Of a stretch of DNA of 58,969 nucleotides, positions 17,140 through 56,711 are shown one piece after another (position 1 is the first letter of the stretch; the number at the start of each line of letters is the position of its first letter). The position numbers and the translations under genes were made by a program. The notes under the pieces were generated by a model, which worked only from the letters and a program-made list of their open reading frames with translations, ran no database searches and was not told where the DNA came from. This DNA comes from a virus: positions 1 through 58,969 of the IMG/VR virus record IMGVR_UViG_3300032053_000085; one strand, written 5' to 3'.

Positions 17140-17447
17140 TAACGGACGACGAGTACCTCTGGTACAAGTTGTCACACGAACTAGGCTGGCCACTCCAACT
17201 CGTTAAGGAACTCACGACCCTTGACGAGTTTGTAAAATGGCAAGCCTATTTTCATAGGCGAAAGCTAGAACACGAAAAACTGGATTGGTACTTAGCAAGT
17301 GTCGCACACACAGTTGCAGGAGCGCTCGGGGGATCAAAACTAGCCCTGGACAAATACCTGCTTCGCTTCGAAGCACCAGTAGTCAAAGTCCAAACCCCGG
17401 AAGAAAGCAAAGCCATTTGGTTGGCTAGCCTAGGAGTCCAAGTATGA
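16780..17447 (+). CDS. G-T fusion made by -1 frameshift
   Basis: Slipping back one base at A-AAA-AAC (17130-17136) continues into a frame that stays open to 17447 and reads LITDDEYLWYKLSHELGWP at the joint. It gives a 222-residue protein whose C-terminal 103 residues are the T domain. The T frame has no good start of its own. Lambda-like phages use the same arrangement to make chaperones that coat the tape measure before tail assembly. The stop overlaps the tape measure start. Confidence 0.85.
17130..17164 (+). promoter_or_regulatory. -1 ribosomal frameshift site
   Basis: The canonical X-XXY-YYZ heptamer A-AAA-AAC is in the correct register for the upstream frame, three bases before its stop. 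A small hairpin (GTACC tct GGTAC, about 17152-17164) lies about 15 nt downstream and could stimulate slipping. Confidence 0.85.
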
Positions 17448-20400
17448 GCGGTCCAAGCCGAGAACTTCCACCACTCGTAGTCCGTATTGATGGTGACAAT
17501 AGCGGTGCTCTTAAATCATTTAAGGGCACCATCGAGGCGGCTAAAGCTACGGCAAAAACTTTGGTCGGGGTGGTTAAAGAGTATGTCGCAGGAAGCAAGG
17601 CTGCCTTCGAGCGGGATTTTACGAATTACCGCCTACTCCAAAAAGCCAAAGAAAAGGAGACGAGGGAAAACTATCGTCGCATGAAGCAGTTGGACAAGGC
17701 TGCCAGCAAAATCGTCATTGCCGAAAACAAGAAAAGCCAAGCGGCGATACGTGACGAGCAACAAAAGACCGTTAAATTCTTCAGGACTAACGCCAAGTCA
17801 CTAAATCGGGATTCTGAGCAGAATTACGGCAGGTTGACCCCTACGTTCAAGGGCACGAAAGGTGTTAAAGCCGCTAAGGGCGGCGTCGACCTAAATGCTC
17901 TCGTGGGTAACGCTGAAAAGACTGCCAAGGCGGTCGCTAGCAAGGATGCCAAAGTCATGGCCAAGGCGGATCGTGATCGTGCCCAGTCTGTCATGGGAGC
18001 ACGTAATGCCCAACGAGCCCAGACTGCCCAGACTAATAAGGAAGCCGCTGCCGGTGTGGCTGAGAAACTTCGCAGAGACAAACAACTAGATAAATCGGCC
18101 AAGCAAAGCCGTACTGAAGAAGATCAAGCGTCACGAAAACGGATGCGACTCTGGGGCCGTGAAAAGGCCCAGGAAATCAAAAACGACAACGAGTCCATCG
18201 CACGATCGAGACGTGGCTACGTCTCGCGTCTGCGCGATTCGACGCAAGAAGCACTTCAGAATGCGAAGCATGATGAAGCTGCGATCAGGGATACCAAGAA
18301 AAAAGAAGACGCGAAGCGAAGTGGCTACGTCTCGCGTCTGCGCGATTCGACGCAAGAAGCACTTCAGAATTCCAAGAACGATTTGGCGGATATTAAATCT
18401 ACCCAAGCCGCCGCTGAGAAGAAATCCAAAACGCTGCAAGGCATCCAGGATTTCTTTAAGAGTGCCCGTAACGAACAACTGAAGGCAGGGGTAGACGACG
18501 CGCTTCAGAATGCAAAGCATGACAGTGCCGCTATCGCCTCCACAAACAGAACTACGGAAAGTCGCGCTCGCGCTGTTCAAGGCATACGAGATCACTTCGC
18601 ACGTGCGAATCGTGAGCGGCTACAGCAAATGGGCCGCGAGCTTACGCAGCAGGCCAGGAATGACGCTGCCGATATTCGCTATCGGCAATCACAAGAACGC
18701 AGGGACGCTAGGGCTGCCCGCGCCGCTAATAGAGGCGGCGGAATGGGTGGTGGCATGGGCGGACGTGCCGACCTATACATGCACTCGGCTGCCGTACAGA
18801 ACATCAGCGGTGGTATTCGCAGCATCGTTGAGCCATGGGCGCAACTAGAAAGCCATATCACAACCATTAAGGTGTTCACTGGTTCAATGGAGAAGGCTCG
18901 CGATGTTGCTGCGCAGCAGCAACAGTTCGCTTTGGTGTCTCCATACTCCTTGAATTCTGTTATGGAAGCAACCGGACTCCTAATGAAGTTCGGTCAGTCT
19001 TCCGTGGATGCGGTTGCGACCGTACAGATGTTGGGCGATGTAGCAGGCGGCAGTTCCGAGCGATTGAAGCACGTGGCTCTGGGCATCGCCCAAGCGGTCT
19101 CGCTTGGCCGACTCCAAGGCCAAGAACTTCGTCAGATGACCGAAGGCGGTTTCAATCCGCTGCGTATCGCTGCTGAGCAGGCTTCTGGAGTAGGTGTTAA
19201 GTCGTCTTACACCGACGAAGAAGAAAAGTTGATCCAACATAAGATCGCAGAGTTTGATCACTTGATGCGTTCCAGAAAGCTGGACGCTAAATTTGCTGTC
19301 GCTGCATTGAAAATGACCACCAGTAAAGGCGGTCGGCACTTTGAGGCCGTTAAGGAAGCTTCCTTAACGCCTATCGGACTCGCAACGCAGATCATGGAAT
19401 CGGTCGAACTTGTTGCAATCGAAACAGTCAAACTGTTTGATAAAGAACTAAAGGCCCTACTCCAGACTGTGCTAGATACGGTTACGGCATTCATCAAATG
19501 GATGCGGGCTAATAAGGCACTTGTAGCCCAGATAGCTATCTTAAGTGCTAAGATAATAGGAGCGTTCCTGGTATTCCACTTGCTTTCGTGGGCTATCGCC
19601 GGGGCTAGATGGGTCTTAGGAGGACTTTGGGAAGCCATGCATGTCGGATACAATGCCATCGCCGGGTTAATTGGATTCGTAGTTTGGCTGGCAGGAGCAT
19701 TCACCGCAGAGGGGGCAGCCGCCACGTCAGCGTGGCTTGCGACGTTCGGGCCGGTAGCATTGATTACAATAGCGGTAGTGGCGGCAATTGCTGCCGTGAC
19801 CGCTCTCGGATTTGCTATAGCAGTGCTAGGTAACGATAACGGCATACAGGGGGTATTCGATAACATCTATAATTTCGGCATGTTTCTGGTTGGCTTTTTC
19901 TACAACTTCGGCCATAACCTGCCGCTAACTTTCGAATTCGTTGCTGCTAATTGGCAAGTCATGGCATGGGATATGATGGAGACGATAGACAAGGCAGTCG
20001 TCGCGATGGGAAAAATTCTCTACGATTTATTTGTGGTCCAATTACCCCAAATGATAGAAGCCGGAAGTGCAATGGCCGGTGAGGCGTTACTTGGTTTAGT
20101 AGGTATGGGCAGTAAAAAAGCGAGCACGGGAGAAAGCGGCACAGCGCTGTTTGGCAACGACAGTATGGTTACTAAAATCCGGGAATCGCTTTACGGGGGG
20201 AAGCCGAAGGGTGGCTACGACACTAGCATGCTTAAGTTAGACACGCCCGACCCTACGGCATTCCTTAAACCGTACATGGGCGGTAGTGCCCTTAATGAAG
20301 CTGCTGTACCTGAGTGGCTCAAGAAATACATGAAAGAAGATGGATCGTATGATATCAATTTCGAGGATTTTGTTAAGAGCGAAGCCGATGCAGGGCCGGG

Positions 20401-20635
20401 GGGTAAGGGTAAGGGCAAGAAGGGCGCAGTCGCTACTCGCGACCACGCCCTTGTCGGAAGTAACGAACAGGCCCAACGAACCTACGACTATACCCAGGCT
20501 ATGATGGGATCAACCGGGGCAGTGACCAAGGACAATGCACCATTGAAGCAAGTTGCTCTTTTAGAGCAAATTGCGCGTAACACGCAACCTGATAACGATC
20601 GAGGCGACTCGATCGGGGACATGGATATAGACTAA
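17444..20635 (+). CDS. Tape measure protein
   Basis: 1063 residues; sets tail length and is ejected with DNA. Residues ~1-440 are charged, coiled-coil-rich and repetitive; two copies of GYVSRLRDSTQEALQN are encoded by identical DNA. Residues ~465-590 match the conserved tape-measure domain (ESHITTIKVFTGSMEKA, SPYSLNSVMEATGLLMKFG, LGDVAGG, GRLQGQELRQMTEGGFNPL). Hydrophobic segments at about 700-840 could cross the host membrane at infection. The Gly/Lys-rich end is flexible. At about 0.15 nm per residue the tail would be roughly 160 nm. It follows the chaperone pair directly. Confidence 0.93.
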   Translation: MSGPSRELPPLVVRIDGDNSGALKSFKGTIEAAKATAKTLVGVVKEYVAGSKAAFERDFTNYRLLQKAKEKETRENYRRMKQLDKAASKIVIAENKKSQAAIRDEQQKTVKFFRTNAKSLNRDSEQNYGRLTPTFKGTKGVKAAKGGVDLNALVGNAEKTAKAVASKDAKVMAKADRDRAQSVMGARNAQRAQTAQTNKEAAAGVAEKLRRDKQLDKSAKQSRTEEDQASRKRMRLWGREKAQEIKNDNESIARSRRGYVSRLRDSTQEALQNAKHDEAAIRDTKKKEDAKRSGYVSRLRDSTQEALQNSKNDLADIKSTQAAAEKKSKTLQGIQDFFKSARNEQLKAGVDDALQNAKHDSAAIASTNRTTESRARAVQGIRDHFARANRERLQQMGRELTQQARNDAADIRYRQSQERRDARAARAANRGGGMGGGMGGRADLYMHSAAVQNISGGIRSIVEPWAQLESHITTIKVFTGSMEKARDVAAQQQQFALVSPYSLNSVMEATGLLMKFGQSSVDAVATVQMLGDVAGGSSERLKHVALGIAQAVSLGRLQGQELRQMTEGGFNPLRIAAEQASGVGVKSSYTDEEEKLIQHKIAEFDHLMRSRKLDAKFAVAALKMTTSKGGRHFEAVKEASLTPIGLATQIMESVELVAIETVKLFDKELKALLQTVLDTVTAFIKWMRANKALVAQIAILSAKIIGAFLVFHLLSWAIAGARWVLGGLWEAMHVGYNAIAGLIGFVVWLAGAFTAEGAAATSAWLATFGPVALITIAVVAAIAAVTALGFAIAVLGNDNGIQGVFDNIYNFGMFLVGFFYNFGHNLPLTFEFVAANWQVMAWDMMETIDKAVVAMGKILYDLFVVQLPQMIEAGSAMAGEALLGLVGMGSKKASTGESGTALFGNDSMVTKIRESLYGGKPKGGYDTSMLKLDTPDPTAFLKPYMGGSALNEAAVPEWLKKYMKEDGSYDINFEDFVKSEADAGPGGKGKGKKGAVATRDHALVGSNEQAQRTYDYTQAMMGSTGAVTKDNAPLKQVALLEQIARNTQPDNDRGDSIGDMDID
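18213..18370 (+). repeat. Duplicated 50-bp segment in the tape measure gene
   Basis: Positions 18213-18262 and 18321-18370 are identical. The segment encodes GYVSRLRDSTQEALQN in both. A degenerate third copy (ALQNAKHDSAA) follows near 18500. Exact identity suggests a recent duplication or gene conversion and a route to change tail length in steps of about 36 residues. Confidence 0.85.
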
Positions 20636-21591
20636 TGACAACATACCCATATCTAGTAGGGGCACATAGCCAACGATTCCGACGGGATGACGAAGGTCAC
20701 CGCTGGTACGATGTGGACTGGCACGTACAGACAGAAACCAAGCACGACAGTCTTGCTTGGATTCTGTCGAACTGGCCTTTATTCACAGTCGGGTCGCCTT
20801 TTGATTTATCCGCTGCGTGGCCCGAAATACGGGGCACTGATCCGTGGGCATTCTGCACGCCGGAGCTTAATATCTCGGCGCACCGAGGTATTAAGGAACA
20901 GTCGCCTGTACAAGACTGGATTGTTTCGCAGACATGGTCTACGAAACAAAGTGGCCGCTGCCAGCAGATTCCTATCGCGAATCCGCTGTACGAGCCGTAC
21001 GAAATGACCGGCGACTTCGTCCATGAGAACCGCGAAGCGGCAGTGGATCGCTTCGGTAAGACTTTACAGCATCCGAACTTCCAGCCTATCAAAGGCCCGG
21101 CTGTCGAATACAAATACTCGTACCCGACGATCAGCTTTTCGTTCAATTCTGGAACACTACCATTATCGACTTACGTTGAACTAATCAACCACGTGAATGA
21201 TGCCCCTCTGTGGGGGCTACCTGCACGTTGCGTCCGGTTCACGGACGCAAAGTGGGCGAGGAAGATTTACGGGGCTTGCGCCTATTACTTCAACGTCTCT
21301 TACACGTTCGAATTCGACATCAAGGGATTCGACCGTGCCGTTCCGGCTGAAGGTAGTATGAAGTTGATGGACGGTGGAAATTTCGGCGATCCGCGAGCAT
21401 TCGAGCCCGCAAAATCGGCATCGGGTGAAAATATCATCGCGCAACTGGATATGTACGGTAGGCAACTAAAAATCGATCGCTTTGACGAGACCGGGCAGCC
21501 GGTCTTCAACGCAGTCCAGTACATCCAAACACCGCAAGTCCACGAGCAGGGCAATCTATTGCTTTTGGGCGTTCCATCTAGCTTAGCGTAA
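20635..21591 (+). CDS. Distal tail protein candidate
   Basis: 318 residues, Trp/Tyr-rich and beta-rich, starting within the tape measure stop (TAATG). Position after the tape measure suggests a distal tail or tail-tip hub protein. No motif I can name; segments such as YKYSYPTISFSFNSGTLPL and FNVSYTFEFDIKGF suggest tail-tip beta sheets. Confidence 0.6.
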   Translation: MTTYPYLVGAHSQRFRRDDEGHRWYDVDWHVQTETKHDSLAWILSNWPLFTVGSPFDLSAAWPEIRGTDPWAFCTPELNISAHRGIKEQSPVQDWIVSQTWSTKQSGRCQQIPIANPLYEPYEMTGDFVHENREAAVDRFGKTLQHPNFQPIKGPAVEYKYSYPTISFSFNSGTLPLSTYVELINHVNDAPLWGLPARCVRFTDAKWARKIYGACAYYFNVSYTFEFDIKGFDRAVPAEGSMKLMDGGNFGDPRAFEPAKSASGENIIAQLDMYGRQLKIDRFDETGQPVFNAVQYIQTPQVHEQGNLLLLGVPSSLA

Positions 21592-21600
21592 AATCATACC

Positions 21601-22083
21601 ATGGCAAAAGAAAAACAAACACTCCAGTCAGATAAAACCGGATTCATGGGAGATCGAGCGACCATCATCGTTCGCGCTCATTACCAGGAATACGAGACAA
21701 ATGAACTAACTACGGCCCAGCACGCCTTCGACTTCGTCAACGACGCATCCGATTCGGCTTGGCAGACTTCCCAGCGGGTCAGCCCGTCTAAGGCGACACC
21801 GCTGAATATCGGGCACTTGGACCCCGGTTCCTGTATCCTAACGCTGTCCCATGAAGTGCCTAAAATGACATCTTCCGTAGATGCCATCTTGCAAAATGCA
21901 CTCAAAAGGAATACAATTAGAATAACTAATGCAGACGGTGTTCAGGTAGGAATCCTCCGACCTCGCCGGGCGATGGTTGTCGAATACGGGTTTCCCGTAT
22001 TCGTACAGTCCAGCGATGCCACTGCCCTCCTAAGTATCACAGCGTTTCCGGTCCACAACAATGAAGAAATTCCTACTGAGTGA
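21601..22083 (+). CDS. Tail-tip associated protein, unknown
   Basis: 160 residues between the distal tail candidate and the mucin-like protein, which starts 23 bp before its end. Beta pattern in ATIIVRAHYQEYE, SCILTLSHEVPKM and AMVVEYGFPVFVQS. Probably a virion component by position; no family recognised. Confidence 0.6.
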   Translation: MAKEKQTLQSDKTGFMGDRATIIVRAHYQEYETNELTTAQHAFDFVNDASDSAWQTSQRVSPSKATPLNIGHLDPGSCILTLSHEVPKMTSSVDAILQNALKRNTIRITNADGVQVGILRPRRAMVVEYGFPVFVQSSDATALLSITAFPVHNNEEIPTE

Positions 22084-25000
22084 GTCCGACCGTCGTGAGC
22101 TAGTCGCTGCATTAGCAAAACAACGTAAAGGTCCGCCGCCCCGCAATATCGCCCGCACGCCAGTATTCCCTTCGCAAGAAGGCGATACCTACTGGGTAAT
22201 CCCGCCCTGTGAGCAGGGATTACCCGCTGCCGAAATCGTCAACGGCGTCCCTACGCCTATTGGCGTACAGGCGTGCCTGTATCGCCACAACTGGGAAACC
22301 ACACAAATGGAAGCAATGGTAGGCCCTACGGGCCTACCATTGCGTGTTCCAGTATTCAATTACTTCACGCAAGCGGAAAACAAGCTTACCCAGGTCTATA
22401 AGCAGAAGGACGGGACTTGGACTAACTCCCGTCCCGAATCATACAATATCGTAGAGAGCAACGCTGCTGGTGCAAGCTCGACTGCCACGACCACGATCCC
22501 GCTACAACAGAGCACGCTTGACCCACACTGTGCCAATACATGCAAGTGGGTAGCAGATGCTCAGGGCGTCTGGCAAGGACCGACGGGAGGATGTGCCAAC
22601 GGCACATCCTCGACTTCATCTACGACCACAGGCACGACTGCTGCCCCTACGACCACCGGCAGCGGCAGTGGCGGTAGCGGTAGTTACAGTACCGCACTTC
22701 CTAATCCCCCAACGCTAGCACCTTGTATCCAAAGCCGCTGTCGCCTGATGTGCGGTAAGGTTACGGGCACTGCTACTGGGACCACAGTTACCGGAACGGG
22801 AACCACTACACCTACGCCGATGATCTACTATCGATCGACGGCGACAGGTACAGGTACAGGAACAACCGGCTGCCCTGATGGTTGTTCGTGCTATGGATTA
22901 GGCGATACGTGTTGGCTACTCGACGGTGAGCTAGTCTCGCACTGTATCGGCCCGGCTCCGACACAGGCCCCCACCACAACACTAAATCCACACGCACCCG
23001 CATGCGATCTCGCCCAGGCTATTTTCGGTACGCCTGACGATATTATCTCGCGCGCTGCCGTACACGGCGGCGTTGCAGAAACCTGGGAAGTCTGCCAAGA
23101 TTGCGATACCGGGAAGACTCCATTGTTCCCGCTAGGCGGGGAGGAATTCCGTAATTCTGACCATCCTAATCTAGTCACAGTCTACGAATCGATCTGCGTC
23201 GAATCCCCATGCTCGATAGACGTCCCGCCTGAAGTTCCAGGACGTGCTGTTTTCCTAGCTTACAGCTACGAAAAACAACTATTCCGATGGGCCGGTGCTG
23301 GTCAGTGGCTAAAGCGGCAGACGGGCCGGTTTAGGGCTAACTGGTTCTCATGCACGCCGTGTTTGGGACGCCCCGAGACTTCACCACCGCATTGGATATA
23401 CGAAAGCACGATGCTGAATGCGGCTAACGGCGTTCGGTACGACGAAGCGGCTGGTGTCTACGTGTTCGAAGTCGAATGCAAAGACGGGCTCAGTTGCACG
23501 TCTTGCGGACGTGCTCCGTACGTCACTATCCCAACAACCATCCCAGCACCGACCACAACGGGCACTGGCACCACTTCGGCACCATCCTCCACCACTTCCG
23601 GCACTGGCACAACTACCGCTACGCCTACGACCACGCCAATCCCGTGCTCGTGTGAACGTCCGACACACTGTGGCGACCCAGGCGAATGTGCTTATACCAG
23701 ATGCTCGATCGGCGGATCACTACTACCTAGAAATTCTAATCTGGCATGCTTCCCAGATTCGACTACTGCTGGCCCGTATACCACTGGTGCCGGTACGACA
23801 CTAAGTCCGAATCAGTGCATTGACAGTTACGGTACTCTCTGTAATTGCGGCGGTATACCTACGACACGTCCCGCCACGGGCGGGACGTGTCCTCCGGGAC
23901 AGGTATTGGTTCATGGGGCAACACCCTGCGATCCGCCATACTGTGTAGACGCCTCAAGTGGACCACCTGCAACAACATCGTTCCCAATACCCTGTCTAGG
24001 TTACTGTAGCTATGTTTCGCGGGTTGTTTCTTTCGGGCCGCCGGTGACGTATGTCTGGACCCTGGAAAGTAACGGTTGTTCTAGGATAAGCAACTGCTTC
24101 TGCGAAGCCCCTAATTTCGATCCGGGCGGGTGTAATCTCCGGTATGAGAACGGGTGCACGGCCAGGGCGGGTGCCACTACCCTGCCACCTTGTAGTTGTT
24201 GCAGCTTTGCTACAACAACTGCTGGTCCTCCTTGTCTATCTGGCCGTTGCCGATATGCCTCCAACGGGGCGGGCGGCTGGACTAAGACCATTGACACTTG
24301 TCCCACCGGGACACAGTGTCCGTGTGCTTCTGCTGCTAGTATCGGAAAGCCGTCAAGTAATGACTGTGATGCGTTCACACTAGCATGCGGACAAGAAGGT
24401 CCGACAACGACTCCGAGCGGGACCGGAACTACGATCCAGCCTACCGGATACGGATGCTGCGTAGAAGTGTGCATCAGTGGAAGTTGGTTGTACAACTGCC
24501 AGCCGGTCGCGACCGCAGCGGACTGTACGGCACTAGGCGGCACAGTTAGTACGAATACTAACTGTACTGATACAGGTGGCGTGTCGCAATGCGACCAGAC
24601 GAATGCCGATGGTATCTGCTGCCGATCAAACGGATTGGGCGGTTATAACTGTTCTGAGCAGGATGCCCATAGCTGCATCGTGACCGGCGGTACCTGGCGT
24701 TCAAGACGATCAGGTGCCTATTGTGATGCAAGAAGTAATTCCTGTCCACACAGCAGTTGCCTTTCCACCACTACGGGCACCACCGGAACAGGCACCACAG
24801 CCGCTCCAACAACGACAGGTGGTGCCACAACGACCGGCGGGGCGACTACCACAGCCGCTCCAACAACGACCGGCGGGGCGACTACGACCGGCGGGGCGAC
24901 TACGACCGGCGGGGCGACTACGACAGGTGGTGCCACAACGACAGCCGCTCCAACAACGACAGCCGCTCCAACAACGACAGCCGCTCCAACAACGACCGGC

Positions 25001-25084
25001 GGGGCGACTACGACAGGTGGTGCCACAACGACCGGCGGGGCGACTACGTCGGGCGGCCTAACCACCGATCCTCCTCCAGGATAA
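22061..25084 (+). CDS. Mucin-like Thr/Cys-rich surface protein
   Basis: 1007 residues, presumably a virion tail adhesin by position. Residues ~1-130 look like a tail-attachment domain (no signal peptide). The rest alternates Cys-rich modules (for example CCVEVCISGSWLYNCQP..., with CC..G.C..C..GG spacing) with Thr/Ser/Pro linkers such as TTTGTTAAPTTTGSG. The last ~90 residues are hexapeptide repeats TTTGGA and TTTAAP encoded by an 18-bp minisatellite, then TDPPPG. Thr-rich PTTT tracts beside Cys-rich knots are the architecture of eukaryotic mucins. They would be excellent O-glycosylation targets; the next gene is a glycosyltransferase with GalNAc-transferase-like motifs. Several long perfect hairpins lie in its coding sequence. 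Confidence 0.8.
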   Translation: MKKFLLSESDRRELVAALAKQRKGPPPRNIARTPVFPSQEGDTYWVIPPCEQGLPAAEIVNGVPTPIGVQACLYRHNWETTQMEAMVGPTGLPLRVPVFNYFTQAENKLTQVYKQKDGTWTNSRPESYNIVESNAAGASSTATTTIPLQQSTLDPHCANTCKWVADAQGVWQGPTGGCANGTSSTSSTTTGTTAAPTTTGSGSGGSGSYSTALPNPPTLAPCIQSRCRLMCGKVTGTATGTTVTGTGTTTPTPMIYYRSTATGTGTGTTGCPDGCSCYGLGDTCWLLDGELVSHCIGPAPTQAPTTTLNPHAPACDLAQAIFGTPDDIISRAAVHGGVAETWEVCQDCDTGKTPLFPLGGEEFRNSDHPNLVTVYESICVESPCSIDVPPEVPGRAVFLAYSYEKQLFRWAGAGQWLKRQTGRFRANWFSCTPCLGRPETSPPHWIYESTMLNAANGVRYDEAAGVYVFEVECKDGLSCTSCGRAPYVTIPTTIPAPTTTGTGTTSAPSSTTSGTGTTTATPTTTPIPCSCERPTHCGDPGECAYTRCSIGGSLLPRNSNLACFPDSTTAGPYTTGAGTTLSPNQCIDSYGTLCNCGGIPTTRPATGGTCPPGQVLVHGATPCDPPYCVDASSGPPATTSFPIPCLGYCSYVSRVVSFGPPVTYVWTLESNGCSRISNCFCEAPNFDPGGCNLRYENGCTARAGATTLPPCSCCSFATTTAGPPCLSGRCRYASNGAGGWTKTIDTCPTGTQCPCASAASIGKPSSNDCDAFTLACGQEGPTTTPSGTGTTIQPTGYGCCVEVCISGSWLYNCQPVATAADCTALGGTVSTNTNCTDTGGVSQCDQTNADGICCRSNGLGGYNCSEQDAHSCIVTGGTWRSRRSGAYCDARSNSCPHSSCLSTTTGTTGTGTTAAPTTTGGATTTGGATTTAAPTTTGGATTTGGATTTGGATTTGGATTTAAPTTTAAPTTTAAPTTTGGATTTGGATTTGGATTSGGLTTDPPPG
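22313..22343. repeat. Perfect inverted repeat, 14-bp arms
   Basis: GCAATGGTAGGCCC and its reverse complement around a 3-nt loop, in the mucin-like gene. The same gene has stems at 22194-22225 (10 bp), 22587-22611 (11 bp) and 23863-23891 (13 bp). Confidence 0.9.
23863..23891. repeat. Perfect inverted repeat, 13-bp arms
   Basis: GACACGTCCCGCC and its reverse complement separated by acg, inside the mucin-like coding sequence. Confidence 0.9.
24800..25070 (+). repeat. 18-bp coding minisatellite (TTTGGA / TTTAAP)
   Basis: About fifteen 18-bp units encode AAPTTT or GGATTT. Variants acgaccggcggggcgact and acgacaggtggtgccaca are interspersed and many copies are identical. Since the unit is a multiple of three, slippage or unequal recombination changes repeat number without a frameshift, so the length of the Thr-rich tail may vary within the phage population. 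Confidence 0.92.
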
Positions 25085-25099
25085 TAATCACTAAACCAC

Positions 25100-25143
25100 T
25101 TGCACAAAAGACCTCCATCAGCTATACTAATGGAGGTCTTTTG
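25100..25143 (+). promoter_or_regulatory. Promoter nested in a terminator hairpin
   Basis: TTGCAC (25100-25105), 17-bp spacer and TATACT (25123-25128) form a good promoter for the glycosyltransferase. The same DNA is an intrinsic terminator: AAAGACCTCCAT...ATGGAGGTCTTT with T-run (about 25107-25143), whose loop contains the -10. Transcripts from the tail operon would stop here while new ones begin within the loop and cannot fold it. Confidence 0.7.
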
Positions 25144-25176
25144 TATCACCTACACTAATACTACGGAAATAAACGA

Positions 25177-27201
25177 ATGGTTAAATACACCATTGCCATG
25201 TCCACGTTCGATGACTACGATGGCGTGTTCTTCACGATCCAGTCGCTTCGGATGTATCATGATCTCACGGATACTGAGATTATTGTCCTGGACAATAATC
25301 CGACCGGCCCGCACAGTCAAGACCTCAAGAACTTCATCAACAACATCCAGACCCCTGAAGTCCCGATCTCCTACCACATAATGGAAGGACAGACGGGTAC
25401 GTCGGCAACTCGGCACAAGTTGTTCGAGTTAGCCACAGGCGAACTCGTAATCGTGATGGATTGCCACATTCTCCTACAGGAAGGTGCCCTGGAAAAGCTG
25501 CATCGATTCTGGGAGTCTGCCGACGAAGATATGAAGAAGAATATATTCGCCGGGCCGCTCTTGATGGATGGGTTGAATTACACAATGACCCACTTCGATT
25601 GCGTCTGGAGAGACCAGATGCTCGGAACTTGGGCAAAGGCATGGAAGAAAGACGGTGAATACTACATCGCCATGCGTAACCCGGACGATGAGAAGACTAT
25701 CTTCATTAAGGAAATCATGGGCGATAAGCCTGTGATGACCCTTAATTGTATCTGGCCTGGACACGAAGCCGCCCTAGAACGTATGGGATTCGAGGGTGCT
25801 GGCATGAACGGCGATGACGTGCCGTTTGAAATCCCAGGCCAGGGCCTAGGATTGTTCATGGCTGCCAAGGAACACTGGCTAGGCTTCCACCCCGACCATA
25901 AGCACTTTGGCGGGGAGGAATGCTACATTCATGCCAAGTATCGACAAGCAGGTCGCAAGGCTCTCTGCTTGCCTTGGATGGTCTGGAATCACCGATTTGG
26001 TCGCCCAGGCGGACCTAAGTATCCTATTACCCGCGAAGGTAAGATGCGGAACTACGTCCTTGAGTTCCTGGAACTCGGCTGGGACTTAGAGCCTATTCGC
26101 CATCACTTCATCGACGAAGTTGGCTTGCCAGCTTCGGCGTGGGAGGCTGTAGTAGCCGATCCTGTAAACTTTGACCCCTATTTCGGGTGGTCACCAAATA
26201 CTGCCCCAAGCAAGATGGTCCCAGATGCCGTATCGAATCTTGGTATGTGGCTGCCTGTAGGACATGACGACTTGCTCGGCATGGCCGTAGCTACGGGAGC
26301 ACACGCACGTGATTTGAATCCACACTTTACGGTATTCATGGAACATGCTCAGAAGTCTCGATCGGTTCTGGAGATCAGTAAACGCCGCGAGACCACTTTA
26401 TGGCTCGCAGCGGGCCTAGCCCAGAGCCGTTGCAAGGGGTGTAAAAGTTCGGAGACATGCGACCGCGAAGGCTGTAGTATGCCCCGAATGGTCTCTTTCC
26501 AGATGGAAAGAGACACGTTAATTGACGTAGTAGCCGATCTGGCGAAAGACACGATCGACTTCGAAGATACGACGTATACGTCGTACGACGATCCGTTGTT
26601 CATGGGGGAAGATCGTTTCGATCTTCTCTACATCCACCACAAGCATACCTTCACTATGCTCAACAGCCAGCTTACTACGTTAGGTAGGCTGACTGACAAA
26701 TATATCCTCTTGACTGGAACAGCCCGTGGTGCCAACGGCATTAAGGGCGAAGATGAGTCTGTGCCTGGACTACTCCACGCAGTGCGTATGTTTGTTAAGA
26801 ACAATCCTGAGTGGTTTGTAAAGTCGCACACGGAGAATGCCTACGGCATGACTGTGTTGTCGCGAGTAGAGGAAGATCGGCCAGAAGTCGAAATCAAGCC
26901 GTGGCCACCAACTAACGACAAGGGCGAGGTATGTGGTGTCGGGCAAGAGATCAAGAAACTCCTGTCTATGCTGGGTATCGAATCCTCTGCCAACTGTGCT
27001 TGCAACGGCGAAGCGTTGCGGCTAGACGGCGAGGGGCCGGATTACTGTGTTGAGAATATCGAATCGATCGTCGATTGGATGCATACGCAAGCAGTCCAAA
27101 GACAGCTTGAGAAGTTCTTCTTCCGGCCTGCGGTACGGGCAACAGTCCATATAGCTATCCGGCGAGCCCGGAAAGCTATAGCAAAAAAGACTTGCTGGTA
27201 A
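25177..27201 (+). CDS. Glycosyltransferase, GT-A fold, GalNAc-transferase-like, with extra C-terminal domains
   Basis: 674 residues. Residues 1-290 are a GT-A glycosyltransferase: MSTFDDYDGVFFTIQSL nucleotide-binding start, metal-binding D95-x-H97 in VIVMDCHILL, and GGEECYIHAKY at 245 followed by NHRFGR. D-x-H plus GGE..H.FR is the pattern of polypeptide GalNAc-transferases (GT27) rather than ordinary GT2 enzymes. The middle part (DLLYIHHKHTFTMLNSQL, then LLTGT) resembles a class I methyltransferase-like fold. The end has GVGQEIKKLLSMLGIESS..CAC..A, a Cys-containing helical domain seen at the C-terminus of phage glycosyltransferases. It follows the Thr-rich mucin-like gene, its likely acceptor; the acceptor is inference. 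Confidence 0.8.
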   Translation: MVKYTIAMSTFDDYDGVFFTIQSLRMYHDLTDTEIIVLDNNPTGPHSQDLKNFINNIQTPEVPISYHIMEGQTGTSATRHKLFELATGELVIVMDCHILLQEGALEKLHRFWESADEDMKKNIFAGPLLMDGLNYTMTHFDCVWRDQMLGTWAKAWKKDGEYYIAMRNPDDEKTIFIKEIMGDKPVMTLNCIWPGHEAALERMGFEGAGMNGDDVPFEIPGQGLGLFMAAKEHWLGFHPDHKHFGGEECYIHAKYRQAGRKALCLPWMVWNHRFGRPGGPKYPITREGKMRNYVLEFLELGWDLEPIRHHFIDEVGLPASAWEAVVADPVNFDPYFGWSPNTAPSKMVPDAVSNLGMWLPVGHDDLLGMAVATGAHARDLNPHFTVFMEHAQKSRSVLEISKRRETTLWLAAGLAQSRCKGCKSSETCDREGCSMPRMVSFQMERDTLIDVVADLAKDTIDFEDTTYTSYDDPLFMGEDRFDLLYIHHKHTFTMLNSQLTTLGRLTDKYILLTGTARGANGIKGEDESVPGLLHAVRMFVKNNPEWFVKSHTENAYGMTVLSRVEEDRPEVEIKPWPPTNDKGEVCGVGQEIKKLLSMLGIESSANCACNGEALRLDGEGPDYCVENIESIVDWMHTQAVQRQLEKFFFRPAVRATVHIAIRRARKAIAKKTCW

Positions 27202-31046: not shown

Positions 31047-32189
31047 CTACAATTTTCTACCACACTGAGAACAGGTAGCTCGCTCCGCGAGCACCTGTTC
31101 CAGCTTCCGTTCCGTGATTCGGTATTTAGTTACTTCATTTTCGTATTCCTCATACTGGTTGACTAGGTCGCGAATCCGACTTGAGTTCGTTGGTTGTGCA
31201 AGTATCTTAGCACAACTTTGCCGAAGCGTGTCAGAAATTCTCGATTTTTGCTGAACTATTTCTAGCGTCTGCTTGCCAACTTCCAGAAAATCCGCCTCCA
31301 GCGCCCGGCGTTGTCGGCGACATGCTACCAAACCTTCCAAAGCGGCACCTGCCGCTTCCAAAGTCGATAAGGCTGCAACAGCCTTGGTTTCAGCTACGAG
31401 CGATTCTAGGTCCTGTTTTGTGGCTTTGGTGGCCTGTAGTTTCCTACCGGCTTCTAGAGCACTGTCACAGGCAGCAGATAGCTGAACTAGAGCAGTCCCG
31501 CTACCCCGCAACTGGACTAACTCCCACGTATGTAGTCCTAGATCATTTATTGCATCGGCGAGGCGTGTGATGGTATCAGCCTCTATCTGTAGTAGCGTAA
31601 GCATATCCCCCATTCGGGGGATATGCTTATTGGCTTCCAGGTACGCTTCGAAGCCGGTTAGTTCCTGCTCCGTGGCCTCTAGGAGGATATTGTTCTGCTT
31701 CGACCGTTCCTTTAGCCAGCTAATGGCACGGTCAATGTCTTCCAGAGAAACGATCTTGTTGATCTCCCGGGCTACTTGTCCGGGAGTCAACGATAGGAGA
31801 AAATGAGGATCGTGTTGGGACTGGAAATTAGTTTCCGTCAGATTCAGTACCGTCGCGATCGGCAACGGCTGGTCGCGAGCACAGGCTAAGAACTTCGGCA
31901 GGTCGTTAAGCTGGTAGCCGTAGCCCCGAGTGTCCTTGAACCGTTCGATTACGTTAGGTCCGTCCGCGATTACGTTAGGTCCGTCCGCGATTACGCGGAC
32001 GGACATTTCTGATTCCCCATTGGTCGTCAGGCCCGTGGCGGTTTCATGCAAAGCAAGAAACCGCAACCCACGGACAACGGCAGACTTGCCGGTGTCCGAC
32101 GGTCCTGTAATGACGTTCAGTCCTGGCCTAAGCGGCAGGACTGAACGTCGGTGGGATTGAAAGTTCGTTAGCTTGATTTCTTTTAGCAT
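31047..32189 (-). CDS. SbcC/Rad50 N-terminal half ending at a zinc hook
   Basis: 380 residues from the ATG at 32189, chosen for GGAG upstream. N-terminal lobe MLKEIKLTNFQSHRR with Walker A TGPSDTGKSAVVRGL (about 29-43), Q-loop-like region near FQSQHDPHFLLS, then coiled coil (about 150-365). The protein ends at CSQCGRKL, exactly a Rad50 zinc-hook CxxC. So the split falls at the hook apex and the returning coil plus Walker B lobe are elsewhere (28336). A 21-bp tandem duplication encodes VIADGPN twice near residue 75. A 14-bp-arm hairpin (31598-31629) is in the coil region. Confidence 0.85.
   Translation of the reverse strand: MLKEIKLTNFQSHRRSVLPLRPGLNVITGPSDTGKSAVVRGLRFLALHETATGLTTNGESEMSVRVIADGPNVIADGPNVIERFKDTRGYGYQLNDLPKFLACARDQPLPIATVLNLTETNFQSQHDPHFLLSLTPGQVAREINKIVSLEDIDRAISWLKERSKQNNILLEATEQELTGFEAYLEANKHIPRMGDMLTLLQIEADTITRLADAINDLGLHTWELVQLRGSGTALVQLSAACDSALEAGRKLQATKATKQDLESLVAETKAVAALSTLEAAGAALEGLVACRRQRRALEADFLEVGKQTLEIVQQKSRISDTLRQSCAKILAQPTNSSRIRDLVNQYEEYENEVTKYRITERKLEQVLAERATCSQCGRKL
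31598..31629. repeat. Perfect inverted repeat, 14-bp arms
   Basis: TAAGCATATCCCCC and its reverse complement around a 4-nt loop inside the SbcC N-half. Confidence 0.9.
31946..31987 (-). repeat. Tandem 21-bp duplication
   Basis: Two exact copies of a 21-bp unit (cgattacgttaggtccgtcc plus g), with a partial third. In frame, it duplicates seven residues (VIADGPN) just after the Walker A strand region, probably in a surface loop. Confidence 0.9.
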
Positions 32190-33409
32190 CCCAGTTCTCC
32201 TGGCCTGTGGTAGCTTTGTTTGGGTAATGTGCTGGTCCAAATCTTGGTTTGCTTGCCCGCACAGTACATTTGCTGGATTCCTAGATCGAGTTCCGCGAGG
32301 GAATCGATCCCGTTGTAAAGCATCAAATCGTTAGGATCAATTCGATGAATCGAATTGAATCCGTCAGTTGTCTCAGTTTCGAACGCCTGTTCTACGCCTT
32401 TGGCGTAGAACGGCTGGCCTAGCTCCACGAACGCTTGGAATTTCAGGCCCGATACCGCAATCTGCGGATCGGCCATGTGTGCAGAAATCATCGTATCCCA
32501 AGTCCAGCGGTTTACTTCGACGCCGTAGAACTGCCGACTCCAACGATCCTCGAACTTAAGATTGGCGGCTATTTTGTAGGAATCAGACAGTAAGTAGTTT
32601 CGCCACGCATCAACGAGCATATCGTCCATCATGAATGCGACACACTTAGGTTTGTCGCCTTCCAGCCACGCCACGGAAGCTGAATATATTTTGGCCCCAG
32701 GCTTGGTGCATTTCAAGTGGTTGGTTTCGTAGTCAAACGCCGAGAAGACAGACTTTCCCGCTTCCTGCAAGGCACGGATGATATAGTTCTTCTGCCTAGG
32801 CATTTCCACCATCTTGGCGTAGTCGGGCACTACGTCATACGGTCGACCCGTCGACCGTAAGGCATACCGTAGCCAACGGAAGTGCTGTATCTTGCTTACG
32901 TCTGGATTCAAGAGTCGTCCGTCTTTCATCCGACCGGCAAAGCCGATCGGATAAACCCAGGCGTTGAGTTCCCGAGAGGGAATACGACGCCCGTACCAGC
33001 GATCCCGCATTTCTGCGGGATGCTGCCATAGGTAATCGATAATAGAGTCGTTTGCCTGCCGCCCTAAGACGATAACCGTCTCGGGTTTGATTGATCGGAG
33101 ATTCTCGATCAGCAAAGGCTGGCAATGTCTCCAGCTTTCAGGATTGTCGCCATCGCAGGATGATGCTGCCAGCAGCGTCACGTTACCAAGCATGGCCCCG
33201 TGCTGCTCCAGCATAGATGCCAGCTTGGGTTCGTTTATGAGACCGTCGGCCCGGTCTTCCGGTGAATCGATAACGATCACCGTCTTCCGGGCCGACTGCG
33301 GCATCTGCTTAGGATGGCGGCATTTGGATATCAATCCACATGCCGTACAGTCTGGGCCTAGTTTAATGGGTGCCTGGATTGTAACCTTGGGGGATAAGAA
33401 TGTGAACAT
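32183..33409 (-). CDS. Uracil-DNA-glycosylase-like / 3'-5' exonuclease fusion
   Basis: 408 residues from the ATG at 33409 (MFTFLSPKV), overlapping the clamp stop. Residues ~1-190 resemble Fe-S uracil-DNA glycosylases: CTACGLISKCRHP, VIVIDSPEDRADGL and a C-terminal LLIENLRSIKPETVIVLG. Residues ~225-408 are a DnaQ-like proofreading exonuclease of the PolA type: FDYETNHLK (Exo I), NLKFEDRW (Exo II), YNGIDSLAELDL (Exo III). Many phages fuse these modules. The matching polymerase domain is a separate gene at 42188, so the PolA chain is split and proofreading is in trans. Confidence 0.82.
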   Translation of the reverse strand: MFTFLSPKVTIQAPIKLGPDCTACGLISKCRHPKQMPQSARKTVIVIDSPEDRADGLINEPKLASMLEQHGAMLGNVTLLAASSCDGDNPESWRHCQPLLIENLRSIKPETVIVLGRQANDSIIDYLWQHPAEMRDRWYGRRIPSRELNAWVYPIGFAGRMKDGRLLNPDVSKIQHFRWLRYALRSTGRPYDVVPDYAKMVEMPRQKNYIIRALQEAGKSVFSAFDYETNHLKCTKPGAKIYSASVAWLEGDKPKCVAFMMDDMLVDAWRNYLLSDSYKIAANLKFEDRWSRQFYGVEVNRWTWDTMISAHMADPQIAVSGLKFQAFVELGQPFYAKGVEQAFETETTDGFNSIHRIDPNDLMLYNGIDSLAELDLGIQQMYCAGKQTKIWTSTLPKQSYHRPGELGC

Positions 33410-34431
33410 TATTGCTTTGTTGCTGAGACTGCGTAGAGGAAACCGTCGCCCTTGATCCGTAGGCACGAATCGCAGATTGCGATTGGTGCCCCGTGCTTCA
33501 AGATCAATGATAACACGGATGGATTTACTTGTAAATCCATATCGACCCCGTCGTAGGTAATTGGCTTTTCTTCCTCAGTATCGCCAAAGACGGATTCGGC
33601 TTTGACGATCAGGGTGTTAGCCCGAAGCTGCAACATGACCTTCTGTTCTTCTTTCTTATCCAGGACGAACGCCATGGCCCGATCGACTACTTCCGTAGCC
33701 GATCCAGGCAGCACGATCTCCCTGATCTTCGCCTCGGTGAAGATCGACGTAATGTCTGGATATTCTTCACCTAGCCGACGTACGGAGATAATCAGCCCAG
33801 AGTAAGTCTTCCAGTGAATCCAGTCACGTGTATAGCTAACGGCAGCAGCACCGATTCCGTTCAGCGCTTTGCAGCTAGTTGCCCTAGCCAATATGTGCGG
33901 TTCCGTCGCACCGGTGGCGACGACGAACCGCATAGCCTGATACTTGTTAGTCGCCTGCATCCCGCGAGGGGTGAAGTCGACGCAATTCAAAGCAAACGGT
34001 TCGGCATCCACAGCAGCACAGGCTGCCACCATACCTAGGGCCTCTGAGAAGATCGGAGGCAGGTCTGTGAAGTCTCCAGGTTCTTCGACTTCGTCTGTTT
34101 CCAGCAGAATGTCGGTAGACACTTTGATGTTCTGGCGGCGACCGGTTCCCTTGATCGTAAGCTTCCCATCCACTAAGTCGATATCGACTTCTAGATCAGG
34201 ACTCTTGCGTAAGGTATCCAGTAGTGTCTTAGCTGGCACGGCACACCTATACGGAAACGGTTCCCCTAACGCATTGGTTACACCAACGCGACAGAGGATT
34301 TCCCCATTATACGTGTGTAGCGTCCCGTCCATGAACACGTAGCAACTACTTTGCTCCATGTTCTCTTTGGTGTTGAGTCCCGCAGAGCAGGACTCAAGCG
34401 TTCGTAGTAGGTCTTGTCGGTCAAACTTCAT
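33409..34431 (-). CDS. Sliding clamp (DnaN-like)
   Basis: 340 residues, size and order of a bacterial beta clamp with three repeats of the clamp fold: MKFDRQDLLRTLESCSAGL, VDFTPRGMQATNKYQAM and VNPSVLSLIL with a C-terminal DGFLYAVSATKQ (canonical clamps end YL.MP.). It tethers the PolA-type polymerase. Overlaps the acetyltransferase gene upstream by 11 bp and the exonuclease downstream. Clamp loader is at 39795. Confidence 0.75.
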   Translation of the reverse strand: MKFDRQDLLRTLESCSAGLNTKENMEQSSCYVFMDGTLHTYNGEILCRVGVTNALGEPFPYRCAVPAKTLLDTLRKSPDLEVDIDLVDGKLTIKGTGRRQNIKVSTDILLETDEVEEPGDFTDLPPIFSEALGMVAACAAVDAEPFALNCVDFTPRGMQATNKYQAMRFVVATGATEPHILARATSCKALNGIGAAAVSYTRDWIHWKTYSGLIISVRRLGEEYPDITSIFTEAKIREIVLPGSATEVVDRAMAFVLDKKEEQKVMLQLRANTLIVKAESVFGDTEEEKPITYDGVDMDLQVNPSVLSLILKHGAPIAICDSCLRIKGDGFLYAVSATKQ

Positions 34432-42187: not shown

Positions 42188-43579
42188 TCATTCTCGACCA
42201 GTATATGCGACTTTGTCGAACCAGGATACATCAGATATCTCAGTCTCGGTTTTAAGCGGCAGGATAACCCATGGGTTATCTTGTTTGATTTTTGTCGTCA
42301 TGTGGTAATTAGCCATTGCAACATAGTCATGCAGTTCGTTTTTCGGTACTATCGCTAACAACGAATCGTGTACTTCTAGGAACAAGCGGGACCGCATTCT
42401 AGTTCGTCTGATCTCGGCATCGATCGTAGTAATTGCCCGGAGCAATAGATGAAAGGCGGAACCTTGAATAGGCATGTTGATTATGAAATTACGCTTCTCT
42501 GCTCCCCACCAAGTGAATCCAGATAACGTGTGGCAATACCCCTTCTGCTGGTACGATTGATACCAGTCACGACGCCACTGATCGTATTCTGGGTAACGCA
42601 CCTTCCAGAAGTCGTGCTCGACTTCCTTGATGTGCGTTACCATCGCGTCAGGTCCGGGCTGCTCGATCCATTTCTTCTCTACGAAGTCGTAGGTCAAGCC
42701 CAGTCGTTTGATTCCCTTGCTTGCAAGGTAATCAACCATGCCCGTCTTTACGGCTGTCTTCCACAGCCGTAAAGCCACGTCGACGTAGTAGTTCCCGTAG
42801 AACCAGGAAAACACAGCGTCCGATTTAGCCGCAGTCCGTAGGACTTTGGCTAACTTTAGGTTGTCCCTGATCCAATCATCGCCGTACTTGTAGCACTGCT
42901 TACTGACTGCCGTGTGCATGTCGTAACCCGTGTTCAAGTTATCGATCATGGTCGGGTCTTTGTGGTAGCAGGCTGCCACGTGGACTTCTAGAGCCGAGTA
43001 GTCAATTTCAACGATATACTGCCCATCAGGAGGGCAGATAGTGCTCTTGACGTATCGCGTAATGCCTACATTACGCGAAGGTAGATTGTTCAGATTAGGT
43101 GCTTCGGCTGAGCCACGGAATGATTTAACCGTGTTCAGGTTCAAGCTACCGTAGACCCTACCATCGACGATTTCTCGGGAGAAAGCGTCGAGATAGGTGC
43201 CTTTGAGTTTCTGGAACTTCTGGAGTTTCAGAAATTCGGTAACGTAGTCGTTGTCCAGTGCGAGCAGGGCGTTCTCGTCTAGCTTGTATCGCCCGGCCTC
43301 TGACTTAGTCGCCCCCGGCAATTGCATGTGGCCATACAACACCCATGCTAATTGATCGCGAGAACCGAGCGAGCATTCCTTGCCGAATTTCCGTTGTTGG
43401 ATTTGGTAAATCTCGTGCTTCCGTAGGATAGCACTTGATTGCCTAATCTTGTCGGTTACTTCGGCTTGGGCAGTCGCCAGCTTGGCTGGATTGACTGGGA
43501 GGCCGACGCTCTCCATACGCGAAAGGGCAATAGCCCCTTCGTGAAATAGTCGATAAGCGGAACTTGTGGCCGGACGCAC
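42188..43579 (-). CDS. DNA polymerase, family A polymerase domain (split PolA)
   Basis: 463 residues containing only the polymerase domain. Thumb-like N-terminus (LSRMESVGLPVNPAKL, LGSRDQLAWVLYG), SFRGSAEAPNLNNLPSRN, motif A VEIDYSALEVHVAACY (catalytic Asp; His replaces the usual Arg), motif B region RTAAKSDAVFSWFYGNYY and motif C LEVHDSLLAI. Proofreading and 5' nuclease domains are separate genes at 32183 and 36214. Remnants of HNH genes on its downstream side suggest that homing elements helped to break up this region; inference. A 12-bp-arm hairpin (42746-42774) and an 18-bp palindrome (42263-42280) lie in it. Confidence 0.92.
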   Translation of the reverse strand: MRPATSSAYRLFHEGAIALSRMESVGLPVNPAKLATAQAEVTDKIRQSSAILRKHEIYQIQQRKFGKECSLGSRDQLAWVLYGHMQLPGATKSEAGRYKLDENALLALDNDYVTEFLKLQKFQKLKGTYLDAFSREIVDGRVYGSLNLNTVKSFRGSAEAPNLNNLPSRNVGITRYVKSTICPPDGQYIVEIDYSALEVHVAACYHKDPTMIDNLNTGYDMHTAVSKQCYKYGDDWIRDNLKLAKVLRTAAKSDAVFSWFYGNYYVDVALRLWKTAVKTGMVDYLASKGIKRLGLTYDFVEKKWIEQPGPDAMVTHIKEVEHDFWKVRYPEYDQWRRDWYQSYQQKGYCHTLSGFTWWGAEKRNFIINMPIQGSAFHLLLRAITTIDAEIRRTRMRSRLFLEVHDSLLAIVPKNELHDYVAMANYHMTTKIKQDNPWVILPLKTETEISDVSWFDKVAYTGRE

Positions 43580-54880: not shown

Positions 54881-55327
54881 TCAAGTTTTTCGTTTTTTAG
54901 CGTTCGCCCGCTTGCGTGCGTCCGCCTGATAGGAACTGAGACCTTGGAGCACACCGGCAGGATTTGCCAGCCTAATTGATGACTGAAGCAGGTCGTTTGT
55001 TCCTATCAGGCGTAACAGGGGCACGCCTGTGGGTGCTAGTAGTAGGTACTCCGTAAGGTGCCTGAACTTCCTAACGAGCACCAAATCAAGACCGGTCTGC
55101 GTAGCGACCTCGTCTACCCAAACCGGTCGCTGCTCGCTTGGTGGGATTTTCGGAGCACCAATCTTTTTCGGGCGGCCTCTGTGCTTACGAAGGACTTGTG
55201 CGATGAGAGGCTGCGGGAAACCTGTGAGTTCTTTGATCTTATCCCATGTACGTTCCGCAGGCGGAAGGGACATGGCGGCTGATTTTATCTCCGCGATAGC
55301 GCGGCGGGACGGCTTGATTTCTGTCAT
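54881..55327 (-). CDS. Helix-turn-helix-like protein
   Basis: 148 residues from the ATG at 55327, within the stop of the fucosyltransferase gene. Region TWDKIKELTGFPQPLIAQVL then RKHRGRPKK suggests a helix-turn-helix followed by a basic RGRPKK tail, as in DNA-binding regulators. C-terminal part has LLLAPTGVPLLRLIG and ends RKRANAKKRKT. Possible regulator of the adjacent block. Confidence 0.55.
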   Translation of the reverse strand: MTEIKPSRRAIAEIKSAAMSLPPAERTWDKIKELTGFPQPLIAQVLRKHRGRPKKIGAPKIPPSEQRPVWVDEVATQTGLDLVLVRKFRHLTEYLLLAPTGVPLLRLIGTNDLLQSSIRLANPAGVLQGLSSYQADARKRANAKKRKT

Positions 55328-56127
55328 TATTGATTCTCGCAAGGTGCACTCGCGTGCCAATCGGCTGGGAATATAGGCGGTCCCGGCTTATTGTCCGTAA
55401 GCCAGTTCGTTGGATAGACCACGCCCTGGGTGGTATTGGATAGGTAGGCACCGAGCCACCCAAACGTGGAATTTCCAATGATATGGTAGTCGAACTTAAT
55501 CATATAGCTCAGATCGATCCACGGGTCTCGATCTTCGACGGCAATCAATTGTATGCTACGGCTAATCTCGTTCCACATTCGCGGGACGAGGGTATATTGG
55601 CACCATTCGTAGTCGTCGGAATAGATCACAAAGCGATCTATTCCCTTGGATTGGTGGAGATTCTTAGCATGCTTGATGAAATATTCAGCAGGCATGACTC
55701 CGTGCCAAGCGGTCGAACATGGATTGGTCACGTAATCGCCACGTCTTACGTGGATACAGGCACGTTTCGATAAGCCTCGCGGACGCCACTGGATACGTCG
55801 ACGGAACCAGTCCCTGACGTCTGACGTCCAGTAGTCCAGGGATTGGAAGTAACCTTCGAGACGATAGTTCTTGGCAGGATCGTAGTTTGCCGGAACTGAT
55901 TCCTGGTAACGCTCGTCACAAGGCACTTGGCGTGCGCCAGGACGCACGCCAAGTGCTCCGAGCCGGAAAGGGCGGGGTGTTATACCTGGAGTGTTCTGGT
56001 ACGCTTCCAGGAGGCTACAATCGGCTTCTATCAGGTGTTCGTTGCCCGGGCCGACAACCGATAGGGCGGCGGCATACTGAAAAACTTGATTACCCAACCC
56101 CCCCATTAGGGTTATATGCACTGTCAT
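55327..56127 (-). CDS. GT11-type (alpha-1,2-)fucosyltransferase
   Basis: 266 residues from the ATG at 56127 (AGGAG upstream). GT11 signatures are clear: MGGLGNQVFQYAAAL at the start, IHVRRGDYV near residue 130 (HxRRGDY), FVIYSDDYEWCQ, and IIGNSTFGWLGAYLS at the C-terminus. These enzymes transfer fucose from GDP-fucose to galactose. It heads the second leftward block. With the other two glycosyltransferases and FkbM it could build and cap a glycan on the mucin-like protein, or alter host surface glycans. A 14-bp-arm hairpin is at 55923-55956. Confidence 0.88.
   Translation of the reverse strand: MTVHITLMGGLGNQVFQYAAALSVVGPGNEHLIEADCSLLEAYQNTPGITPRPFRLGALGVRPGARQVPCDERYQESVPANYDPAKNYRLEGYFQSLDYWTSDVRDWFRRRIQWRPRGLSKRACIHVRRGDYVTNPCSTAWHGVMPAEYFIKHAKNLHQSKGIDRFVIYSDDYEWCQYTLVPRMWNEISRSIQLIAVEDRDPWIDLSYMIKFDYHIIGNSTFGWLGAYLSNTTQGVVYPTNWLTDNKPGPPIFPADWHASAPCENQ
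55923..55956. repeat. Perfect inverted repeat, 14-bp arms
   Basis: GCACTTGGCGTGCG and its complement around ccagga, within the fucosyltransferase gene. Confidence 0.92.
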
Positions 56128-56150
56128 TGAATTATGCACTCCTGTACTAG

Positions 56151-56668: not shown

Positions 56669-56711
56669 GGTGCCCTAGCCACGCCACTACCGTACTTATT
56701 TTGGATTGCCC

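Follow-up and report, generated by a model that had tools for sequence, protein, structure and literature searches.

Phage Genes for a Thr-Rich Tail-Region Protein and a GT27-like Glycosyltransferase Lie Side by Side

A gene for a Thr-rich tail-region protein (P0002) is directly followed by a gene for a glycosyltransferase (GT) resembling polypeptide GalNAc-transferases (P0001) in a 58,969-base IMG/VR virus record, the whole of which is called the window here. In our computations the gene pair was present, the enzyme showed a GT27-like fold and motifs, and its genes were recurrently adjacent to genes for Thr-rich proteins and were present or absent jointly with them. The same arrangement is found in dozens of uncultured phages and some bacteria, a recurrence suggesting that such phages coat a tail protein of their own with sugars. 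We consider it likely that P0001 adds sugars to the Thr tracts of P0002 to give a mucin-like tail stalk, with a second GT (P0003) extending the glycan.

By its gene content the window belongs to a tailed phage. Its plus strand carries terminase, portal, capsid-related, tape measure and tail genes, and the replication genes are on the minus strand. The first 25 kb had no DNA match among 50,697 phage records, and the terminase had only remote relatives. The tape measure gene (17444..20635, plus strand) was recognized by PHROG tape measure matches, and its homologues lie upstream of the gene pair in relatives; its position places P0002 in the tail module. Two further tail-module genes (20635..21591 and 21601..22083, both plus strand) precede the P0002-P0001 pair in conserved order, and the first of them was used as an independent anchor (see below). 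Since its gene comes behind those for the tape measure and two conserved tail proteins, we infer that P0002 is a virion component.

P0002 (22061..25084, plus strand), the proposed acceptor, has 1007 aa with 178 Thr and 66 Cys and consists of an N-terminal domain, Cys-rich modules and Thr-rich tracts. The N-terminal domain (aa 1-127, 22061..22441, plus strand) was conserved in the alignment of homologous upstream proteins; its AF2 model was mediocre (pLDDT 64), and fold searches with this model gave no known fold. The C-terminal array (aa 907-1007, 24779..25081, plus strand) is the proposed mucin-like O-glycosylation tract. An earlier note on this DNA had described about 15 TTTGGA/TTTAAP repeats. 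The array was indeed found, but it comprises 13 hexapeptide units, nine TTTGGA and four TTTAAP. The densest 60-aa segment contained 32 Thr, compared with a maximum of 24 in 2000 composition-preserving shuffles, and TRF picked up the DNA of the array at 24797-25056 with scores up to 290. As the note had stated, the enzyme gene comes next; it lies on the same strand, at a distance of 93 bp.

P0001 Resembles Polypeptide GalNAc-Transferases

P0001 (25177..27201, plus strand), the proposed initiating GT, has 674 aa. Motifs, profile, AF2 model and Foldseek all defined a GT27-like GT-A domain at aa 1-330 (25177..26166, plus strand). All three motifs named in the earlier note were located on the plus strand: D95-x-H97 within MDCH (25459-25467), GGEE at aa 245-248 (25909-25920) and NHRFGR at aa 271-276 with H272 (25990-25992). 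Residues D13, D95, H97, E247, H272 and N292 were invariant in 51 diverse relatives; the family search pattern contained the GGE and the W-x-H motif, and D13, D95, H97 and N292 lie outside this pattern.

P0001 matched Glycos_transf_2 (PF00535) with 36.4 bits, above the cut-off of 23.3, and so did all 51 relatives. When the profile of the GT-A domain was searched against all PDB sequences, GALNT10 (3e-5), GALNT4 (9e-4) and GALNT7 (2e-3) were matched over most of the domain, and GALNT12 and GALNT1 stayed below significance. TarS, TarP, TagF and other GTs matched mainly the N-terminal half of the domain profile. The alignment with GALNT10 takes in DSH and GGE. The AF2 model was good over aa 1-330, with block pLDDT values mostly above 90. 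In a Foldseek search of the PDB with this model the 50 best matches were all GalNAc-transferases (best E 5e-12), a count that is inflated by the many GALNT entries in the PDB. TM-scores were modest, partly owing to the two-domain query.

Like the enzymes of family GT27 (CAZy, GALNT1-20), P0001 has a GT-A fold, with these enzymes as its best PDB matches, the D-x-H and GGE motifs, and a Thr-rich acceptor candidate next door. Its His follows GGEx by 24 residues, and GALNTs have a C-terminal His at matching spacing from the GGE motif. Unlike GT27 enzymes, P0001 lacks the Golgi anchor and has an extra CmcI-like C-terminal domain, and it shares only about 15% sequence identity with GALNTs. No transmembrane-like segment was detected in P0001 (maximum 19-residue hydropathy 1.61), and the Pfam search revealed neither a TAGT (PF20691) match nor a ricin-type lectin domain, the C-terminus being a different domain. 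Since the ricin domain is missing, we name the enzyme GT27-like rather than GT27. The GalNAc-transferase-like nature proposed in the note was thus backed by the profile matches in the PDB, by the predicted fold and by the invariant metal-site residues, and we conclude that a GT27-like assignment of P0001 is supported by profile, fold and metal-binding motifs.

In the P0001 Clade Most Enzyme Genes Are Preceded by Genes for Thr-Rich Proteins

Viral contigs were scanned for a DNA pattern coding for GGE-(66 nt)-W-x-H-[RS]-F-G. This resulted in 119 loci, and a P0001 homologue was encoded at all of them, as supported by HMM search. The family is large and has members in uncultured phages and in bacteria; four queries found no member in cultured phages among 50,697 records. 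An ORF was counted as Thr-rich when it coded for at least 20 Thr per 60 aa on the same strand and at most 2.5 kb upstream. In the P0001 clade such an ORF was present at 29 of the 34 loci with enough upstream DNA, mostly as the adjacent gene. Downstream of the GT it was found at 1 of 64 loci, and loci with an upstream ORF only outnumbered those with a downstream ORF only by 23 to 1 (p = 3e-6). Among 565 random anchors placed in 120 control loci, none had a Thr-rich ORF. In the rest of the family, outside the P0001 clade, 12 of 58 loci showed a Thr-rich upstream neighbour. After removal of redundancy at 80% identity the values were 24/29 for the clade, 6/35 for the rest of the family and 1/64 for the downstream side. 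By BLAST with masking of low-complexity sequence, the Thr-rich upstream proteins fell into about 18 unlinked groups, so that the Thr tract is their common feature.

The AAP-repeat control set provides a rough background and does not consist of tail loci. We therefore also selected loci by the unrelated tail protein encoded at 20635-21591, independently of the GT, and required at least 6.5 kb of downstream sequence. Among the 32 loci obtained, 24 had both the GT and a Thr-rich protein, seven had neither, one was borderline (GT present, 17 Thr per 60 aa), and none had a Thr-rich protein but no GT. The seven loci with neither gene form a single clade and may therefore reflect one joint gain or loss, so that the 32 loci do not stand for independent events. 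The co-occurrence in related phages, which the note had proposed to look for, was thus seen both in the upstream counts and with the tail-gene anchor. The note would have been refuted by a fold without a GT27-like donor site or by a lack of co-occurrence in relatives; the results on fold and co-occurrence both favoured it.

The reverse search gave a different picture. Only 3 of 119 viral loci coding for TTTAAPTTT-like tracts carried the P0001 GT family. Any GT2 was present in 7 of 50 whole Thr-tract records versus 1 of 50 in the control, and a search of these 50 records with the GT-A domain profile found no P0001-type GT, in a set that held no known positive, unlike the locus-level scan, which did contain known positives. 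Since most TTTAAP-tract loci lack a P0001-type GT, Thr tracts often exist in phages without the enzyme. The association runs from the enzyme to the tract, not from the tract to the enzyme, and a linker role for phage Thr tracts in general cannot be dismissed. The loci L121-L238 include many viral contigs with TTTAAP tracts and no GT2 family member; tracts of this kind are frequent in phages.

Other clades of the GT family are found in different surroundings. At L010, L016, L023, L071 and their relatives the GT gene lies 3' of a conserved gene ending in WKCTKLCHFCKNNW...GFDIGFYEAPG, with no Thr tracts, and at L045, L046, L054 and L058 it lies behind a gene with a terminase-looking C-terminus. 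The enzymes at both types of loci probably have other acceptors. Because these clades are sited elsewhere, the family as a whole is not bound to one acceptor.

A Second GT Gene Adjoins the Pair in Many Relatives

The GT2 at 27276 pointed out in the earlier note corresponds to P0003 (27276..28040, minus strand), a second GT-A glycosyltransferase. Taken alone it was a weak case, since its PF00535 match (2.9e-4) is below the cut-off, but it proved real as a family: a P0003-like GT was located next to the pair, usually in convergent orientation, in 18 of 27 relatives with the pair and in 0 of 7 without it.

The note had also assigned a GT11 (55327-56139; PF01531, 1.7e-19) and an FkbM protein (1972-2577; PF05050, 2.1e-19), and both assignments were right. 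Its idea of a complete set that initiates, extends, fucosylates and methylates a glycan was not supported. GT11 was present in only 3 of the 27 relatives with the pair, all of them close relatives, and FkbM also in 3 of 27 and in addition in 2 of the 7 relatives lacking the pair. We rejected both as parts of a conserved glycan module; initiation and one extension step make up the supported module.

Some Bacterial Relatives Follow Short Thr-Tailed Peptides

In bacteria, 25 of 69 loci had a Thr-rich ORF upstream of the GT; of 219 control anchors taken from these loci, 3 did (p = 1e-14). The neighbours in Rhizobiales and related bacteria are short proteins in which an RR...PAHA export signal, scored as a TAT signal in several cases, precedes a Thr-rich tail about 15-90 residues long. 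In Rhizobiales the nearest Thr-tailed TAT peptide usually ends 3-72 nt before the GT gene, and tandem paralogues are often present further upstream. In both examples scanned (L381, a locus of Oricola, and L405) the GT carried a fused domain of the type HprK-related kinase A (TIGR04352; E-values 7e-25 and 3e-27). In these bacterial cassettes the kinase domain is N-terminal; the phage enzyme P0001 lacks it. The loci look like an uncharacterised peptide-modification system. Nothing points more strongly to the Thr tract as the possible substrate than these peptides, which comprise an export signal, a Thr tail and little else.

Tandem TAT-signal peptides with ends of the type PAHA-(A/S)-Thr tail were seen directly upstream of the GT at L381, L390, L405, L406, L421 and L425. 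At L375 an ORF that by eye looks PqqD-like takes the place of the TAT peptides.

Proposed Function and Alternative Explanations

P0001 would be a soluble, metal-dependent GT-A enzyme related to polypeptide GalNAc-transferases. In the host cytoplasm it would take a sugar (probably an N-acetylhexosamine) from a nucleotide donor and attach it to Thr residues in the tracts of P0002, which would be glycosylated before or during tail assembly. In many such phages P0003 probably extends the first sugar. The outcome would be a mucin-like, glycosylated stalk attached to the tail. As the most likely benefit, such a stalk would be stiff, hydrated and resistant to proteases and would keep the Cys-rich modules extended outward; adhesion through the glycans, or shielding, are alternative benefits.

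The Thr tracts might instead be mere flexible linkers, and the GT might be there for another target, for instance the Cys-rich modules or further proteins of the tail. A P0001-type GT is absent from most viral loci that encode TTTAAP tracts, and the homologues of P0002 have Cys-rich modules in common besides the Thr tracts, as this explanation would expect. On the other hand, the upstream neighbours of the GT are largely unrelated outside their Thr tracts, the bacterial relatives sit behind short TAT peptides with little beyond signal and Thr tail, and no anchored tail module had a Thr-rich protein without the GT. We therefore regard the linker explanation as unlikely. Even less probable is an alteration of the host surface by P0001 (O-antigen or LPS seroconversion, superinfection exclusion) in the manner of GtrB-type moron genes. 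A weak PHROG match of P0001 to GtrB-like O-antigen conversion (1.4e-3) and the GT11 and FkbM genes elsewhere in the genome, which suggest tailoring of surface glycans, would fit such a role. Unlike GtrB-type enzymes, however, P0001 has no membrane segment or anchor, its fold is GT27-like, there is no gtrABC-like operon, and the gene is surrounded by tail genes, with relatives directly behind a Thr-rich gene in the tail module. Phage GTs that glycosylate modified DNA bases (TET-associated or T4-type) do exist, and a TAGT match below threshold (0.087) was seen in the GT11 protein of the window, not in P0001. For P0001 we consider this role hardly credible, as it lacks a TAGT match and its context is the tail module and not the replication genes.

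A further possibility, compatible with glycosylation of P0002 by P0001 and not exclusive of it, is that P0001 is bifunctional and also methylates the sugar that it adds. This concerns its C-terminal domain (aa 436-674, 26482..27198, plus strand), which was delimited by the AF2 model and alignment and whose homologues weakly match CmcI-type O-methyltransferases. The homologue L118 passed the Pfam cut-off for RMNT_CmcI (3.5e-5; 24.0 bits versus 23.2), and the AF2 model shows alternating strands and helices at aa 436-562. Against this, the domain in the window's own P0001 had no Pfam match, a profile search with it found no solved structure, and the C-terminal approximately 240 aa are missing from many members of the family. 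Because L118 passed the cut-off and the window's own copy did not, a methyltransferase role is only a suggestion, and we think bifunctionality rather improbable.

Comparison with Known Systems

The enzyme GtfA/B, which initiates the glycosylation of serine-rich repeat glycoproteins, belongs to a different GT family than GT27. In Gram-positive bacteria these glycoproteins are low-complexity Ser/Thr adhesins, O-glycosylated in the cytoplasm by dedicated GTs and exported through an accessory Sec system, an arrangement foreign to phages (PMC6973325, PMC7948813). The mycobacteriophages Che8, Corndog and Myrna encode GTs that glycosylate their own structural proteins, the acceptors being capsid and tail-tube proteins (Freeman et al. 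2023, as described in PMC12363180 and PMC11256854). As in those phages, P0001 is proposed to act on the phage's own protein; in the window the candidate acceptor is a dedicated Thr-rich tail-region protein encoded beside a GT27-like enzyme. Phage self-glycosylation is thus already known, and in our best reading this combination is what is new. In open-licence PMC papers, neither the pairing of a GalNAc-transferase-like enzyme with a Thr-rich protein of a phage nor its bacterial counterpart was found described.

The chances seem evenly balanced that these enzymes represent a widespread, undescribed group of GT27-like "threonine-tract glycosyltransferases", acting on phage mucin-like tail stalks and, as fusions to HprK-related kinases, on exported bacterial Thr-tailed TAT peptides, and forming, in prokaryotes and viruses, a counterpart to the mucin-type O-glycosylation of animals. 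If this were true, many uncultured phages would make mucin-like structures themselves, with an enzyme fold familiar from the initiation of animal mucins. It would become possible to test directly where mucin-type O-glycosylation came from in evolution and what low-complexity Thr tracts do in phage tails, and a soluble, bacterial-type enzyme would be at hand as a tool for adding sugars to Thr repeats.

Other Features of the Window

A family A DNA polymerase seems to be divided between two minus-strand genes some 9 kb from each other (32183-33466 and 42188-43579); the polymerase part, which corresponds to phrog_17 positions 835-1237, lies upstream of the one that matches positions 663-820. Near the start of the contig, at 121-204, a tandem palindromic repeat has units of TAGCTAGCTAGTACAC. 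A large open ORF at 56706-58967 is cut by the contig end. Its product, probably a tail fibre, has a PGIPGPAG stretch in the N-terminal part and repeats (HTFGTTNTVT) internally.
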